In this document: positions 9,251 through 16,814 of the stretch, piece by piece | Layout of the letters: each line of letters opens with the position of its first letter | How positions within the stretch are numbered: position 1 is the first letter of the stretch | Assembly (NCBI RefSeq): GCF_027105095.1 | Contig: NZ_CP114278.1 | Span: 124,001-188,000 of the forward strand | Direction of reading: 5' to 3' | Origin: Brevundimonas vesicularis | GTDB lineage: Bacteria > Pseudomonadota > Alphaproteobacteria > Caulobacterales > Caulobacteraceae | Length of the DNA stretch: 64,000 nucleotides | Made by a program: the position numbers and the translations under genes | Notes under the pieces: generated by a model | Told to the model about the DNA's origin: nothing | Seen by the model: only the letters and a program-made list of their open reading frames with translations | The model's database searches: none

Positions 9251-10897
9251 ATGCGCCACGCCCTCCCCGCTGTTTCCATCCTGGCCCTGATGATGGCCTG
9301 CTGTCCGGCCCTGGCGCAGGAGACGGCACCGAACATCGACGCCGCGCGGATGAATGAGTCGGTTCGGGTTCTGGCGTCGGACGATTTCGAAGGCCGCGCC
9401 CCCGCCTCGGCCGGCGAGGAAAAGACCGTCGCCTGGCTGGTCGAACGGTTCAAGGCCGCGGGGGCCGAGGGCGGCGGGCCGGAGGGCGCCTTCGTCCAGG
9501 TCGCCCATCTGTCGCGCACGCGCCAGGACGGTCCGGCCACCGTCGCCGCGACCGTCGGCGGCAAGACCATCATCCTGGAGCGCGGTCCCGATGTCCTGGT
9601 GTCCAGCGACCGGCCGACCAACCACATCACGGTGACCGACGCGCCTGTGGTCTTCGTCGGCTACGGTGCCACGGCGCCCGAGCGCCAGTGGGACGATTTC
9701 AAGGACGTGGACGTGCGCGGCAAGGTCATCGTCGTCCTGGTCAACGATCCCGACTTCCAGGCGCCCGACGGCGACCCGGTCGCGGGCAAGTTCGACGGAA
9801 ACGCCATGACCTTCTATGGCCGCTGGACCTACAAGTTCCAGGAGGCGGGCCGTCGCGGCGCGGCGGGGGTGCTGGTGGTGCATGAGACGGCCGGCGCAGG
9901 CTATCCCTGGTCCACGCTGCAGAACTCATCGGCCGCGCCCAAGTTCGACATCGTGCGCGCCAGCCCCGACGCCGAGCGCGCGGCGTTCCAGGGCTGGATC
10001 CAGCGCGCCAAGGCGGAAGAGCTGTTCACCGCCGCCGGCCTGGATTTCGCCGCCCTGAAGGACAGCGCGCGCAGCGCCGATTTTAAACCCGTCGTCCTGA
10101 GCGGCCTGACGATGAGCGTCGATTTCGGCCAGATCGCCGACAAGGTGGAGACCAAGAACGTCATCGCCCGCATTCCCGGTTCGGAACGCCCGAACGAGAC
10201 CGTCATGTACGGCGCCCATTGGGACGGCTACGGCGTCGGCACGCCGAACGCACAGGGCGACAAGATCTATAATGCGGCGGTGGACAATGCGACCGGCGTC
10301 GCGGCTCTGCTGGAACTGGCCCACGCCTTCGCCGAAGGTCCGCGCCCCGAACGCTCGGTCGTCTTCGCCGCCTGGTCGGGCGAGGAGGCGGGCCTTCTGG
10401 GTTCGACCTATTACGCCGCCAATCCGGTCTGGCCGCTGGAGACCACGGTCGCCAACATCAACGTCGACAGCCTGCTGCCCGGAACCGAGATCGATCCGAA
10501 CGTCGTCGTCATCGGCAAGGGCAAGAACCAGTTGGACGACATTCTGGCGCGCCATGCGACCGAGACGGGCCGCACCCTGATCGCCGATCCGGCGCCCCAG
10601 GCCGGGGCCTTCTATCGCTCGGACCATTTCCCCCTGGCGCTGAAGGGCGTGCCGGCCCTGTTCCCGGCGGCGGGCTTCACCGGCGCCAGCGCGGTCAGCC
10701 GCGACTATGTCCAGAACCGCTATCATCAGCCCACGGACGAATGGGATTCGACCTGGACGATGGACGCCGCCGCCGCCGATGTGGCCCTGATCTACGCGGT
10801 CGGTCGCGAGCTGGCGAACGGCGACCAATGGCCGGAATGGAACGCCGGCGCCGAGTTCGGCCCGGCGCGGGACGCCTCGAAGGCTTCGCGGCGCTAG
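9251..10897 (+). CDS. Secreted M28-family zinc aminopeptidase with PA domain
   Basis: A 548-residue protein with a signal peptide (residues 1-22, ending PALAQ). A protease-associated insert occupies roughly 110-230 and an M28 catalytic domain follows. Likely zinc ligands are the His and Asp in AHWDGYG and DNATGVAALLEL, the catalytic Glu pair in WSGEEAGLLGS, Asp in INVDSLLPG, and His in YRSDHFPLALKG. It probably trims peptides in the periplasm or outside the cell. Its TAG and the TAG of the convergent divL overlap in the palindrome CTAG at 10894-10897, so transcription of one runs straight into the other. Confidence 0.9.
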   Translation: MRHALPAVSILALMMACCPALAQETAPNIDAARMNESVRVLASDDFEGRAPASAGEEKTVAWLVERFKAAGAEGGGPEGAFVQVAHLSRTRQDGPATVAATVGGKTIILERGPDVLVSSDRPTNHITVTDAPVVFVGYGATAPERQWDDFKDVDVRGKVIVVLVNDPDFQAPDGDPVAGKFDGNAMTFYGRWTYKFQEAGRRGAAGVLVVHETAGAGYPWSTLQNSSAAPKFDIVRASPDAERAAFQGWIQRAKAEELFTAAGLDFAALKDSARSADFKPVVLSGLTMSVDFGQIADKVETKNVIARIPGSERPNETVMYGAHWDGYGVGTPNAQGDKIYNAAVDNATGVAALLELAHAFAEGPRPERSVVFAAWSGEEAGLLGSTYYAANPVWPLETTVANINVDSLLPGTEIDPNVVVIGKGKNQLDDILARHATETGRTLIADPAPQAGAFYRSDHFPLALKGVPALFPAAGFTGASAVSRDYVQNRYHQPTDEWDSTWTMDAAAADVALIYAVGRELANGDQWPEWNAGAEFGPARDASKASRR

Positions 10898-13215
10898 AGT
10901 TCCAGCTGAAGCTCGGGCGCGGCGGCGGTGGTCGCGGCGCCCAGCGGCAGATGCAGGATGAAGGCGGCGCCCTTGCCTGGCTCGCTTTCGACCTCGGCCC
11001 AGCCGCCGTGCAGTTCGACCAGGGCCTTGACCAGGGCCAGACCCACGCCGGGACCGCCGCGCTCGCGCCGCACGAAGCGGTCGAAGACGTGGGCCTGCAA
11101 ATGATAGGGAATGCCGCGCCCGGTGTCGGACACCGTCAGGCGGATTTCGGACGGCCCGGTCTCGGCTTTCAGCTCGACCGCCCCGCCTTCGGACACGGCG
11201 CGCGCCGCGTTCTCCAGCAGATGATCCAGCGCCTGGCCGATGCGGTGTTCGTCGGCCCGGATGGGTTTGAGATCAGCGGGACAGGACACGGTCAGGGTGG
11301 CGCCGCGCCCCTCGACCCGCGCCCGGACCTTTTCGGCGGCCTGGCTCAGCAAGTCGCAGACCCTGAGGTCGCCCAGCGACAGCTCCATCTCGCCCGCGTC
11401 GATCTGGGCCATGTCCAGCACGTCGTCGATGGAGCGGGCCAGCTGGCTGGCGGCAATGCGGATGGCGCCCGCGTGCTGGCGGCTGCGCTCGGGCAGGTCG
11501 CCCATGACCTCCAGAAGTTCGGAATAGCCGACGATGGTCGTCAGCGGCGTGCGCAGCTCATAGGAGACGCTGCCGACGAACTCGCGCTTCAGCGCCTGGC
11601 TTTCGGCGAGGGCCTGTTCGCGCTGCACCAGCGCCTGCTCCAGCCCGCGTCGGGCCGTCACGTCCGAGAAGGCGACCAGGGTCGCGCCGTCCGGCAGGGG
11701 GCGGGTCTGCCAGGCGGCGACGCGACCGTCCACGGTCCGGCCCTCGCCGGAAATGGCGACGCGGCTTTCGGGATCGGGATCGGCGACGCGCGCCTTCAGC
11801 CCCAGCCATAGGGCGGGATCGGGCAGCACGGCCTTGCACAGTTCGGCCAGGGCGTCGAAGTCCGAGGCCGTCGCGATCTTGTCCGCTGACAGGTTCCAGA
11901 AGGTCTCGAACGCCTCATTGTGCAGCCGCAGTCGGCCGTCGGAGCCGAACACCGCGACCGCGTCGTTCAGCTTGTCCAGCGTCGCGCGCTGGACCTGGAT
12001 CTGGGCGTTGAAGCGGCTGCGCAGCTTCAGCTCGTCGGTGATGTCCGAGAAAATCAGCAGAATGCCGCCCAGCGGGTGCGGCTGGCGCACGACGCGCAGG
12101 GTGCGCCCGTCCGGCAGGGACCAGCTGTCGTCCGGCGAGGCCTCCGACGCGCCATAGAACTCCAGCTCACGTGCCTTCCAGCCGGCGTAATCGACGACTT
12201 CGGGCAGGCTGCGACGCTGGCGCAGGCGGTCCAGCAGCTCGGCATGGGTCGGACGTTCGTCCAGCCAGGCCGCGTCGATGTCGAACAGAGTCTGGAAGGC
12301 GGTGTTGTGGAAGGCCAGCCGCTTTTGCGGACCGAAGATCGCGACGGCGTCGGCCAGGTGGTTCAGCGTTTCGTCATGGGCGTCGACGTGGCGGCGCAGG
12401 GTGTCGCGCGTCTCTTCCGCCTCGGTCACCTCAATGGCGAAGGCGGTGACGGCGCCGCCGCCCGCAGGCTCGGCGATGATGCGCCAGGCGCGCCGCGCGC
12501 CGCCGCCGGTCGTCCAGCGGAAGCCCTCCTGGCGCACGCCCAGCCGCGCGGCCTCGGCGACCAGGGCGTCGGCGCCGCGGTCGAAGGACACGCCCTTTTC
12601 GACGGCGTCATCGATGCTCTCGGAATTGGTTTCGTTCAGCCAGGCGCGGTTGGCCCAGGCCAGCTTGCCGGTCCCGTCCACGACCCAGGTCGGGGTCGGC
12701 GAGGCGTCGCCCAACAGGGCCAGGCCGCTTTCGGTCGCATCTGCCCCGGTCAGGGTGAAGCGCGAGGCGGGCGACAGCCGCAGCCAGGCGGAACCGCCCG
12801 CAACCCGGCCCTCGATCCGCCAGGGCTCCACATCGTCCAGCGCGACCAGACCTTCGAACGCCTGACCTTCGTGAACCAGGGCGTCGATCAGCGCGCCGTG
12901 GGTGATCCGGAGTTTGTTCAGGACGGCGGCCCCGGCCTCGGCGTCTTCACCCGCCAGCCGCGCGATCAGTTCGGCCGAACCGATCGGCAGACCGGCCGCC
13001 TGCCCGTCCGGCGTCAGGGCCAGGCTGACGTCATCGAAGGCGCGCAGCATGGCGTCATGGCGGCTGAGGTCGGCCAGGGCCTCAACCCGCTCGCGCTCGG
13101 CGGCGACGGCGGTCTCATGCAACCGCCCACGCAGCAGCAAGGCCCAGGCGCTGACGGCCATGGCCAGTCCGGCTGCGCCCGCTGTGGCGACATAGGCGAT
13201 GTCGGCCTCGGCCAT
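10894..13215 (-). CDS. divL: DivL-type PAS sensor kinase with tyrosine in place of the H-box histidine
   Basis: A 773-residue protein: one N-terminal membrane helix (residues 5-28), three PAS-like regions (about 170-270, 285-395, 410-520), a DHp helix pair and a HATPase domain with N box LLENAARAV, G1 DTGRGI and G2 GVGLALV. The phospho-acceptor position reads SYELRTPLT, so Tyr552 (codon 11560-11562) replaces the usual histidine. Caulobacter DivL is 769 residues with Tyr550 at this site. DivL reads phospho-DivK and controls CckA, and through it CtrA, at the new cell pole. Length, layout and the tyrosine together make this call firm. Confidence 0.93.
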   Translation of the reverse strand: MAEADIAYVATAGAAGLAMAVSAWALLLRGRLHETAVAAERERVEALADLSRHDAMLRAFDDVSLALTPDGQAAGLPIGSAELIARLAGEDAEAGAAVLNKLRITHGALIDALVHEGQAFEGLVALDDVEPWRIEGRVAGGSAWLRLSPASRFTLTGADATESGLALLGDASPTPTWVVDGTGKLAWANRAWLNETNSESIDDAVEKGVSFDRGADALVAEAARLGVRQEGFRWTTGGGARRAWRIIAEPAGGGAVTAFAIEVTEAEETRDTLRRHVDAHDETLNHLADAVAIFGPQKRLAFHNTAFQTLFDIDAAWLDERPTHAELLDRLRQRRSLPEVVDYAGWKARELEFYGASEASPDDSWSLPDGRTLRVVRQPHPLGGILLIFSDITDELKLRSRFNAQIQVQRATLDKLNDAVAVFGSDGRLRLHNEAFETFWNLSADKIATASDFDALAELCKAVLPDPALWLGLKARVADPDPESRVAISGEGRTVDGRVAAWQTRPLPDGATLVAFSDVTARRGLEQALVQREQALAESQALKREFVGSVSYELRTPLTTIVGYSELLEVMGDLPERSRQHAGAIRIAASQLARSIDDVLDMAQIDAGEMELSLGDLRVCDLLSQAAEKVRARVEGRGATLTVSCPADLKPIRADEHRIGQALDHLLENAARAVSEGGAVELKAETGPSEIRLTVSDTGRGIPYHLQAHVFDRFVRRERGGPGVGLALVKALVELHGGWAEVESEPGKGAAFILHLPLGAATTAAAPELQLEL

Positions 13216-14526: not shown

Positions 14527-15255
14527 ATGACCGATCCCCAAACCCTCTCCGATCGTGCGCCCGACGAGCGGATCATCTGCGCCCTCGACGTGCCGACCAC
14601 AGCCGAGGCGGCCGCTTTGGCCGAGCGGATCGGCGATGCGATCGGCTTCTACAAGGTCGGACTGCAACTGTTCGCGGTCGACGGCATGGCGCTGGCGCGG
14701 GAACTTAAGGCGCAGGGGCGAAAGATCTTCCTGGATTGGAAACTGCACGACATCGGCGCGACCGTGGAGAAGGCGACGGCCAATCTGGCGGGCGCCGACT
14801 GCGACCTGCTGACGGTGCATGCGCGGCCCCAGGTCATGGCGGCGGCGGCGCGCGGCGCGGCGGGCTCGAAGATGAAGGTGCTGGGGGTTACGGTCCTGAC
14901 CAGCCTGACGGCCGAGGATTTGGCCGCCGACGACCACAACCTGTCTCCGGCCGATCTGGTCGAGCGGCGGGTGCGGCAGGCGCTGGAGGCCGGGATCGAC
15001 GGCGTCGTCTCCAGCCCGCATGAGGCGGCGCGTGCCCGGGCTCTGGCGGTCGAGGCGGGCCGGCCCGACTTCCTGATCGTCACGCCCGGCGTGCGACCCG
15101 TCGGCGCCGCGCTGGACGACCAGGCGCGGGCGGCGACGCCACAGGCGGCGCTTGAGAGCGGCGCGACCCATCTGGTCATCGGCCGGCCGATCACGGCGTC
15201 GAGCGATCCTCGCGCGGCCGCGCAAGCGATCGCACAGCAGATCGCCCTGATCTGA
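14527..15255 (+). CDS. pyrF: Orotidine 5'-phosphate decarboxylase
   Basis: A 242-residue TIM-barrel enzyme converting OMP to UMP, the last step of de novo pyrimidine synthesis. The catalytic D-x-K-x-x-D array is Asp70, Lys72 and Asp75 in FLDWKLHDIGATV. The phosphate loop is seen in VTPGVRP and in the closing LVIGRPIT. The strand opening RIICALDVPT is typical. It stands alone, with a convergent neighbour 48 bp downstream. Confidence 0.95.
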   Translation: MTDPQTLSDRAPDERIICALDVPTTAEAAALAERIGDAIGFYKVGLQLFAVDGMALARELKAQGRKIFLDWKLHDIGATVEKATANLAGADCDLLTVHARPQVMAAAARGAAGSKMKVLGVTVLTSLTAEDLAADDHNLSPADLVERRVRQALEAGIDGVVSSPHEAARARALAVEAGRPDFLIVTPGVRPVGAALDDQARAATPQAALESGATHLVIGRPITASSDPRAAAQAIAQQIALI

Positions 15256-15303
15256 GACAGACCAGGGCGACCGTTCGTCTTTGGTTGTTCTCGCGCGAGG
15301 CGA

Positions 15304-16458
15304 TCAGCCGCGCTCGCCCGGCTCCTGGGCGTAGCCGTGACGCGGGGGGGCGTGGGGCGCGGGCGCCTCGGGCGGCGGCAGGTCGCCGTAGTAGCCCGAC
15401 GGCGGAGGCGGGGGCGGTGCCGGCGGCGGAGCCGTGTTCACTTCCGGCGGCGCGACATAGACCTGGGCCGGGGCCACATTGACCGGCGCGGACTGCACAT
15501 AGACCGGCGACTGATCGACATAGACCGGGCCGCCGACCTCGACCTGGGCAGGCGCGACATTGACCTGGGCCGGGGCGACCTGGATGTGTTGCGGACCGAT
15601 GTTGACGGGCGCCGACTGCACATAGACCGGGGCCTGATCGACATAGACGGGCGGGCCGACATCGACCTGGGCCGGGGCGAGGTTCACCTGCGACGGAGCC
15701 ACCTGGACGCGTTGCGGCCCGATGTTCACCGGCGGCACCTGCACATAGATGGGCGGCTGTTCGATATAGGTGGGCGGTCCCATCTCGATATGGGGCGGCG
15801 CCATGCTGACCTGCGAAGGCGCGACATAGATGCGGTGAGGCGCGATCTGGACGGGCGGCGCCTGGACATAGACCGGCGGCTGATCGACGTAGCTCTGCTC
15901 GTACCGCTGCTCATAGCGATGTTCGTAGCGAACCGGCGGGCGAACGGGCAGACGGCAGTTGCAGTCGATCGGACGGCCCGGATACGGGCGCCAGCCGATA
16001 TAGTCACGGCCGAACCCATAGACCGGATAGCCGACTGGAGCGCTGACCGGAGGACGGCCGACCAGGACCGAGGTCGCGCTGACGCCGCCGACATAGCCGC
16101 CGCCGTAATAGCCGTCCGAATAGCCGCCGCTTCCGACATAGGTCGTGCCGCCGCCGACATAGCCGCGCTGGAAGCTGGACGAACTGGAATAGGACCGGGC
16201 GCTGCTCGCCGAATAGCTCGAGGCGCTTGCATAGGCGTTGGCGTTGGCGTTGGCGCCGCCGTTCACGTTCACATTGACGTTGTGGTTGGCGTTGTAGTTG
16301 CCGCCGCCGTAGTGACCGCCGCCGCCGCAGCCCCCGCCGCAGCCGCCGCCGGGATGGCCGCCGCCATAACCCCCGTGACCGGGACCGCCGGCCAGAGCGG
16401 GCGCTGCGGAGAGCAGCAGAGCCGCCGACGCGGCGGTAAGTATCGACTGTATCGTCAC
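15304..16458 (-). CDS. Secreted Gly/Asn-rich protein with 41-residue tandem repeats, unknown function
   Basis: A 384-residue exported protein. Residues 1-23 are a signal peptide ending PALA. A Gly/His/Cys-rich stretch follows (GGGCGGGCGGGGHYGGG), then Asn-alternating tracts (HNVNVNVNGGANANANAYAS) and a Ser/Tyr/Gly region. Residues 194-347 hold 3.7 tandem 41-residue repeats. A Pro-rich tail ends the protein. The GTG at 16458 is chosen because AGAGGAG lies 8 bp upstream; a TTG at 16494 has no such site and would precede the signal peptide. A CtrA box lies 53 bp upstream. No domain family recognised; the layout suggests a surface or matrix protein. Confidence 0.75.
   Translation of the reverse strand: MTIQSILTAASAALLLSAAPALAGGPGHGGYGGGHPGGGCGGGCGGGGHYGGGNYNANHNVNVNVNGGANANANAYASASSYSASSARSYSSSSSFQRGYVGGGTTYVGSGGYSDGYYGGGYVGGVSATSVLVGRPPVSAPVGYPVYGFGRDYIGWRPYPGRPIDCNCRLPVRPPVRYEHRYEQRYEQSYVDQPPVYVQAPPVQIAPHRIYVAPSQVSMAPPHIEMGPPTYIEQPPIYVQVPPVNIGPQRVQVAPSQVNLAPAQVDVGPPVYVDQAPVYVQSAPVNIGPQHIQVAPAQVNVAPAQVEVGGPVYVDQSPVYVQSAPVNVAPAQVYVAPPEVNTAPPPAPPPPPPSGYYGDLPPPEAPAPHAPPRHGYAQEPGERG
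15418..15879 (-). repeat. Coding tandem repeat, about 123 bp x 3.7
   Basis: The DNA encodes three complete 41-residue units and one of about 31 residues. Each unit starts (P/A/S)PVYVQ or PPIYVQ and ends PVYVDQ or a variant. Within a unit, a roughly seven-residue sub-repeat P-x-x-V-x-V-A alternates hydrophobic and polar side chains, which suits short beta strands bracketed by prolines. Units 2 and 3 are the most alike. The pattern implies unit-by-unit expansion. Confidence 0.85.
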
Positions 16459-16510
16459 GGGACAGACTCCTCTGAGTTGTTCCGTGACTGGCAAGTCCGG
16501 CGCCTGTTTC

Positions 16511-16526
16511 TTAAGGCGTGGTTAAC
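16511..16526 (-). promoter_or_regulatory. CtrA binding box, TTAA-N7-TTAAC
   Basis: TTAA at 16511-16514 and TTAAC at 16522-16526 are separated by exactly seven bases, matching the full Caulobacter CtrA consensus. The box sits in the 98-bp gap upstream of the repeat-protein gene, 53-68 bp before its GTG, where CtrA typically overlaps a -35 region. The site fits activation of that gene. It was found by eye; binding is inferred. Confidence 0.65.
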
Positions 16527-16556: not shown

Positions 16557-16814
16557 TCAGAAATCGACCGCCAGCCCCTTCTTCTCCCAGTCGCCGAAAC
16601 GGGTCGGTTCGGGACCGGTCGGACCGCCGTATTCCGTGTCCGCCTGAAGGGTCGTTTCCGCCGCGCGACGATCCGCCGCTTCCTGAAGCGCGCGCCGCGC
16701 GGCCTCGCTGAGCGGCCGTTCAGGCGTGGCGTGGGGCACGTCGGCGTTGAAAACGGGCGCTGCCGCCGGCGTTTCGTCGGCGTCATCCGGCGCGAGGGTG
16801 GGATGTTCGGTCAC
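16557..16814 (-). CDS. SDHAF4-like succinate dehydrogenase assembly factor (DUF1674)
   Basis: An 85-residue protein whose C-terminus, GPTGPEPTRFGDWEKKGLAVDF, is the hallmark of DUF1674/SDHAF4. In eukaryotes SDHAF4 binds flavinylated SdhA and promotes its joining to SdhB; bacterial members are presumed to act likewise. The N-terminal half is Ala/Pro-rich and variable, as in homologues. The sdh genes are not in this window. It is divergent from htpX (86 bp between starts). Confidence 0.82.
   Translation of the reverse strand: MTEHPTLAPDDADETPAAAPVFNADVPHATPERPLSEAARRALQEAADRRAAETTLQADTEYGGPTGPEPTRFGDWEKKGLAVDF

Follow-up and report, generated by a model that had tools for sequence, protein, structure and literature searches.

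A predicted secreted repeat protein of Brevundimonas with a conserved C-terminal peptide and a probable sigma54-type promoter beside a CtrA box

In Brevundimonas vesicularis, a gene for a 41-residue-repeat protein is preceded by a full CtrA box and, between this box and the Shine-Dalgarno sequence, by a -24/-12-type element of the sigma54 (RpoN) class; the protein ends in a peptide kept across a Brevundimonas family whose members mostly occupy one locus. The gene lies in a window of 64,000 nucleotides, the whole stretch of DNA that was analyzed (contig NZ_CP114278.1, positions 124,001 to 188,000). A sequence-only reading of the window had singled out the box and the repeat but missed both the sigma54-type element (16491-16504) and the conserved C-terminus (15307-15333), and more is learned from the promoter class, the history of the locus, and the C-terminus shared across the family than from the original observation. 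We lean toward a joint model in which a disordered surface or matrix protein carrying this C-terminal peptide would be expressed from a CtrA-gated sigma54 promoter, with a TacA-like protein or FlbD as activator.

The gene and its protein

The gene, its protein, and its neighbors have the following features.

15304..16458, minus strand: gene for a Gly/Asn/Pro-rich, predicted secreted protein of 384 aa, GTG start at 16458, stop at 15304
16390..16458, minus strand: putative signal peptide by eye, residues 1-23
16225..16299, minus strand: alternating Asn/Val/Ala tract, residues 54-78
16006..16044, minus strand: conserved SAPxGYxxxGFGR motif, residues 139-151
15479..15892, minus strand: 41-residue (123-bp) tandem repeat, each copy with about six 7-residue P-x-x-V-x-V units
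15307..15333, minus strand: C-terminus Y-x-Q-E-x-G-E-R-G (here YAQEPGERG), residues 376-384
14527..15255, plus strand: pyrF (Pfam), downstream convergent neighbor
16557..16814, minus strand: gene for a DUF1674 (PF07896) protein, upstream neighbor, its stop about 30 bp short of the CtrA box
10894..13215, minus strand: DivL-like kinase gene (PAS/HisKA/HATPase_c)

The N-terminus of the protein, MTIQSILTAASAALLLSAAPALAG, is signal-peptide-like by eye, and a crude pattern finds a similar hydrophobic start in 64 of the 65 homologs detected at E ≤ 1e-3 in a protein search with the 384-aa protein. The description of a secreted Gly/Asn-rich protein given by the sequence-only reading is borne out by this start and by the Gly/Asn-rich N-terminus of the 384 aa read from the GTG, and no relative, in a well-characterized cytoplasmic family or otherwise, was detected in Pfam, NCBIfam, or PDB sequence searches. 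The protein is very likely secreted, and a surface or matrix role is likely. It also has Gly-rich and Cys-containing stretches, and among 49 aligned sequences N60 and N62 of the Asn/Val/Ala tract and P141, Y144, G148, G150, and R151 of the SAPxGYxxxGFGR motif are invariant.

Tandem Repeats Finder reports a period of 123 bp, 3.4 copies, and 77% matches over 15479-15892, and at the protein level there are three units of 41 residues and about 30 residues more, so that the 3.7 copies originally counted are fair within a range of 3.4 to 3.7. At least four of the 7-residue units (heptads) occur in 24 of the 30 family members with a sigma54-type element and in 17 of the 65 members without one; because 37 of the latter have no heptad, the repeat is not a trait of the family. 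An AlphaFold2 model built with 49 sequences has a mean pLDDT of 52 and a pTM of 0.22; its only helix is the signal peptide, it has no strand, and the last 54 residues reach 69-84 by block yet are extended. From this low-confidence model, the protein is probably largely disordered.

The C-terminal peptide and the locus

An exact QEPGERG-stop pattern was found in 85 of 131 Brevundimonas genomes versus none of 259 genomes from 21 other genera of the bacterial family (exact pattern only), and its reversed control in one of all 390; the 85 are a lower bound, since the exact pattern misses variants such as QERGERG. This pattern was counted because the protein search, positive in 111 of the 131 genomes, probably includes Gly-rich chance matches. 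Although the query carries the end, the search did not require it, and 57 of the 65 homologs end in Y-x-QE-x-GERG; among the other eight, one has the motif internally, five end differently, one looks frameshifted, and one looks chimeric. The last seven residues of 95 collected proteins longer than 150 residues are QEPGERG (82), QERGERG (10), QEYGERG (2), and QEQGERG (1). Since the collecting pattern requires E, G, E, R, and G, the counts are biased at these residues. The pattern requires neither Y at -9 nor Q at -7, and both are present in all 95.

In a scan of named genomes at least 31 of 65 pattern stretches were confirmed, all from Brevundimonas or from records named only as alphaproteobacteria or Caulobacterales, and near-identical proteins occur in Brevundimonas vesicularis and its kin. 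The protein studied here has all of the family features: signal peptide, SAPxGYxxxGFGR-like motif, Y-x-QE-x-GERG end, and pyrF/DUF1674 locus. A conserved C-terminal peptide on a fast-changing secreted protein, as seen in these alignments, points to a specific partner. We recognized no paper on the Y-x-QE-x-GERG family in the literature, a negative that says little for a nameless family. One 484-aa protein on a 3137-base contig (P0006) joins a family-like start to domains of a precomputed Pfam list that we take to be those of RpoN (sigma54), and is probably an assembly or prediction chimera.

The family is usually single-copy beside pyrF in Brevundimonas: 88 of the 99 distinct collected proteins lie beside pyrF, DUF1674, or htpX within the stretches covered, and 82 of the 85 pattern-positive genomes have one copy of the pattern, with three in G129 and two each in G068 and G096. 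In these three genomes (L115, L116, and L117 in G129; L030 and L082 in G068; L031 and L096 in G096), L116, L082, and L096 are at the usual locus, L115 is elsewhere, and L030, L031, and L117 adjoin an ABC-transporter-like gene (by eye); L030 and L117 have a sigma54-type element and a similar leader. Also by eye, L049, L094, L121, and L135 adjoin a pheS-like gene instead of pyrF, and in the window an inverted repeat at 15220-15275, a possible shared terminator, lies between the convergent gene ends.

In 8 of 24 genomes from 13 other genera, a secreted low-complexity protein picked by eye lies beside pyrF; none was seen in the stretches covered of the other 16, in several of which DUF1674 directly follows pyrF. 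These eight proteins of other Caulobacteraceae share with the Brevundimonas family the locus, a signal-peptide-like start, and Gly-, Pro-, and Ala/Ser-alternating stretches, but none has the Y-x-QE-x-GERG end, and at least six of them have their alternating and Gly/Cys parts near the C-terminus. We take them as positional counterparts and as candidate homologs by composition and locus.

The sequence-only reading had also pointed to DivL, which acts on CtrA, about 2 kb away. A DivL-like kinase gene does lie about 2.1 kb from the repeat-protein gene, with three genes between, but nothing was found that links the two. The kinase, which we take to be DivL, has Tyr at the usual phospho-acceptor His (VSYELRTP), and no NCBIfam model passed its cutoff among the 25 matches listed.

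The upstream region

Four features precede the GTG.

16511..16525, minus strand: CtrA box TTAACCACGCCTTAA, -67 to -53 from the GTG
16491..16504, minus strand: sigma54 (RpoN) -24/-12-type element GGCGCCGGACTTGC (GGCGC-CGGA-CTTGC), between box and Shine-Dalgarno
16479, minus strand: predicted transcription start
16467..16472, minus strand: Shine-Dalgarno GAGGAG, -14 to -9 from the GTG

The full TTAA-N7-TTAAC box that had been claimed before the GTG is real. In this form, readable on the plus strand, it is the one match in the window, versus none in 100 dinucleotide shuffles, and TTAA-N7-TTAA has six sites in the 3.12-Mb genome, a single contig, versus about 1.25 expected from the base composition of the window; the pattern of the box read backward, a control, has none genome-wide. 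Other sites in the genome lie 77 nt before the start of fliF (PF01514/PF08345), between divergent SLT-transglycosylase and TonB_C genes (Pfam), and where a 2-hydroxyacid dehydrogenase gene begins; an SH3-domain gene flanks this last site on its other side (both Pfam). In Caulobacter, fliF is described as a CtrA-controlled class II flagellar gene (PMC3096577). Two perfect boxes within 0.9 kb (G000:C1:3108499-3109374; L037 and L038) are near two secreted-looking protein genes. A fimbrial reading (spore-coat-U, SCPU) of these two genes, near 3.109 Mb, was not secured, one scoring 20.1 against a Pfam cutoff of 22.4 and the other having no match.

A perfect box no more than 100 bp from the start is found in 17 of the 99 collected family members and in none of the others; in the 17 orthologs it is at the same place with a varying spacer (nine distinct 27-base segments). 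On a pyrF tree the box is kept in 17 of the 27 sigma54-type loci, and none of the seven tree rows of a sister group has a perfect one; by eye, the box is degenerate in L018 and L021 and has one mismatch in L028. It hardly serves another gene, because the DUF1674 gene runs in the same direction and ends before it and pyrF is convergent, and it probably works in some members of the genus. As far as the alignments go, CtrA control would be lineage-specific and probably modulatory, because the sister group without the box keeps the sigma54-type element. The earlier proposal of CtrA control therefore survives in part: the box is real and kept in 17 orthologs, but the sigma54-type element is better conserved, remaining in a sister group that has lost the box.

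The RpoN motif of Caulobacter, GGCNC-N4-CTTGC, was derived from mapped transcription starts, and the account in PMC4287350 gives 33 cell-cycle-regulated starts in two classes, those of the swarmer-to-stalked transition and of flagellar genes. The element upstream of the repeat-protein gene matches this published motif, spacing included, as do the sequences of 21 of the 26 orthologs with the same start offset, the other five having TTTGC for CTTGC. Across the 22 distinct upstream sequences of these 26 orthologs, eight columns are invariant between -70 and -22, exactly the GGC-C and TTGC of the element, and they stay so in sequences that have lost the CtrA box; the leader, at -21 to -1, has 13 further invariant columns, Shine-Dalgarno included. 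For 40 independent columns the chance that all invariant ones fall inside one motif placement is about 3e-6, although the range -70 to -22 was picked after the alignment had been viewed and the columns of related genomes are not independent. The column count is confined to the clade and also leaves aside L027 (other start offset) and L029-L031.

The motif alone is common, with four matches in the window versus 1.7 expected and, in a stricter form, four genome-wide versus four for the reversed control, so the argument for sigma54 rests on conservation and position. Because no column from -70 to -22 is invariant apart from those of the element, even without the CtrA box, the core promoter is probably of the sigma54 type, with CtrA as a lineage-specific gate. 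Transcription from sigma54 promoters typically starts 12 nt past the C of the -12 element, which predicts a start at 16479, about 21 nt upstream of the GTG. An element of this type is also found at two flagellin genes of the genome (PF00669/PF00700). The -24 element contains GGCGCC, a sequence that PMC7987155 reports as a cytosine methylation motif of Caulobacteraceae and that is not kept at this place in all orthologs.

An upstream in-frame TTG (16494) was rejected as the start, a stop breaking the frame in ortholog L018; the GTG is preferred because the conserved Shine-Dalgarno serves it, AGGAG at -13 to -9 being invariant in the 22 distinct upstream sequences of the clade. Folding of the 5′ region RNA is not unusual (z = 0.04).

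The pyrF tree has 81 loci, 27 of them with the sigma54 label, and the label requires one change once seven truncated or misread rows (L029, L071, L072, L081, L084, L095, and L108) are set aside; the sigma54-labeled L030, L115, and L117 have no pyrF in their stretch and are off the tree. Because most members outside the clade are without the element, sigma54 control does not characterize the family as a whole. Orthologs of other clades (L046-L135) have different conserved upstream elements by eye, GGTGCAA..GAACCC-N15-CTTAGAAC or GAACGC-N15-ATTAACC, which suggests another sigma factor; the label "ECF?" that we gave them after viewing the sequences makes no claim.

The genome has seven PF00158 matches, three strong and four weak. 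Two of the strong ones, FlbD (beside fli genes) and NtrX, are above their NCBIfam cutoffs, and the third is a TacA-like protein. GAFTGA is kept in FlbD and in the TacA-like protein but not in NtrX. The C-terminus of the TacA-like protein is Ala-Gly, an end reported as the degradation signal of TacA (PMC7010744); because no NCBIfam model passed its cutoff among the 25 matches listed, we infer the name from this end and the domain make-up. By eye, paired CGGCA/TGCCG-like sites surround both flagellin promoters, and neither by eye nor among shared 9-mers were such pairs seen near the repeat-protein gene, for which reason the TacA-like protein appears slightly more likely than FlbD as the activator, a weak preference. 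No enhancer-binding-protein site for TacA or FlbD was recognized near the repeat-protein promoter. Promoter class shows no link to loss of the TacA-like activator, which has a match in all 131 genomes, at 72% identity or more in 127 and only weaker in G032, G053, G062, and G085 (completeness 66-90%).

Competing readings and known systems

In the joint model, the secreted Brevundimonas protein would be tethered or recognized through its Y-x-QE-x-GERG end, the Gly/Asn and Pro/Val parts being variable linker or bulk. In the clade, sigma54-RNA polymerase would transcribe the gene from the -24/-12 promoter, activated by FlbD or, with a slight preference, by the TacA-like protein. CtrA would bind the full box directly upstream, at about -46 to -32 from the predicted start, and gate the promoter, most simply as a block while CtrA is high, with six bases between the box and the -24 GG; once the block is lifted, the promoter would fire at the swarmer-to-stalked transition. 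Alternatively, CtrA could activate a separate promoter. A more far-reaching version, which we put forward only tentatively and think unlikely as a whole, makes the end an anchoring, export, or processing tag for a genus-specific partner and the protein a CtrA-gated sigma54 surface or stalk-pole component, the sigma-factor class having changed between subclades.

CtrA might instead activate the gene directly, the box overlapping the -35 of a sigma70-type promoter and GGCGC-N5-TTGC being something else. The full box is at a plausible distance and kept in 17 orthologs, and the fliF box of the same genome offers a parallel, but no -10-like hexamer was seen by eye 16-18 bp past the box, and retention of the sigma54-type element in the seven boxless tree rows also argues against this arrangement, which we consider unlikely. 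Equally doubtful is a late-flagellar-class gene under FlbD and sigma54, its protein linked to the flagellum or flagellated pole; the promoter type, an FlbD above its cutoff about 4 kb from fliF, and the elements at the two flagellin genes speak for it, whereas the lack of the flagellin-type paired sites nearby, judged by eye and from shared 9-mers only, speaks against it.

Two further readings concern the protein. Most of its sequence diverges fast, and the eight pyrF-side proteins of other genera share composition only, as would suit a fast-evolving low-complexity filler without a specific partner whose conserved end is incidental; with that end fixed while the rest changes and the locus kept in 88 of 99 collected loci, we regard this as quite improbable. 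The amyloid-like character and Pro-bounded beta repeats proposed by the sequence-only reading found no support, strands being absent from the AlphaFold2 model, but with its mean pLDDT of 52 the model is no disproof and is still compatible with assembly. Alternating NVNVN and NANA tracts and a regular Val repeat spaced by Pro would fit a functional amyloid or an ordered beta-repeat matrix protein, yet the repeat is missing from many family members, no family match was found in Pfam or NCBIfam, and such a protein seems to us very unlikely.

The joint model, if its promoter assignments are true, would make the locus a compact natural case of cell-cycle rewiring, with a sigma54-type element in one clade, other elements elsewhere, and a CtrA box in part of that clade. 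Brevundimonas subvibrioides reportedly lacks many of the stalk-associated proteins of Caulobacter, which leaves few known developmental surface proteins in the genus, and the repeat-protein gene is a well-defined candidate for one, with a testable promoter; StpX, reported absent outside Caulobacter, and other Caulobacter stalk proteins offer a possible comparison only, as envelope proteins of a stalked relative (PMC5590869). Like members of the CtrA regulon such as fliF, the gene has a perfect full box that is rare in the genome and at the same position in 17 orthologs, but its box directly precedes a sigma54-type element, no sigma70 -10 is recognizable by eye, and a sister group has lost the box. 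With the RpoN cell-cycle promoters of Caulobacter (spmX, a TacA target, and the late flagellar genes under FlbD; PMC4287350), it shares the GGCNC-N4-CTTGC motif and a genome that has both FlbD and a TacA-like activator, and it differs from them in the full CtrA box directly upstream and in its target, an unnamed secreted protein.
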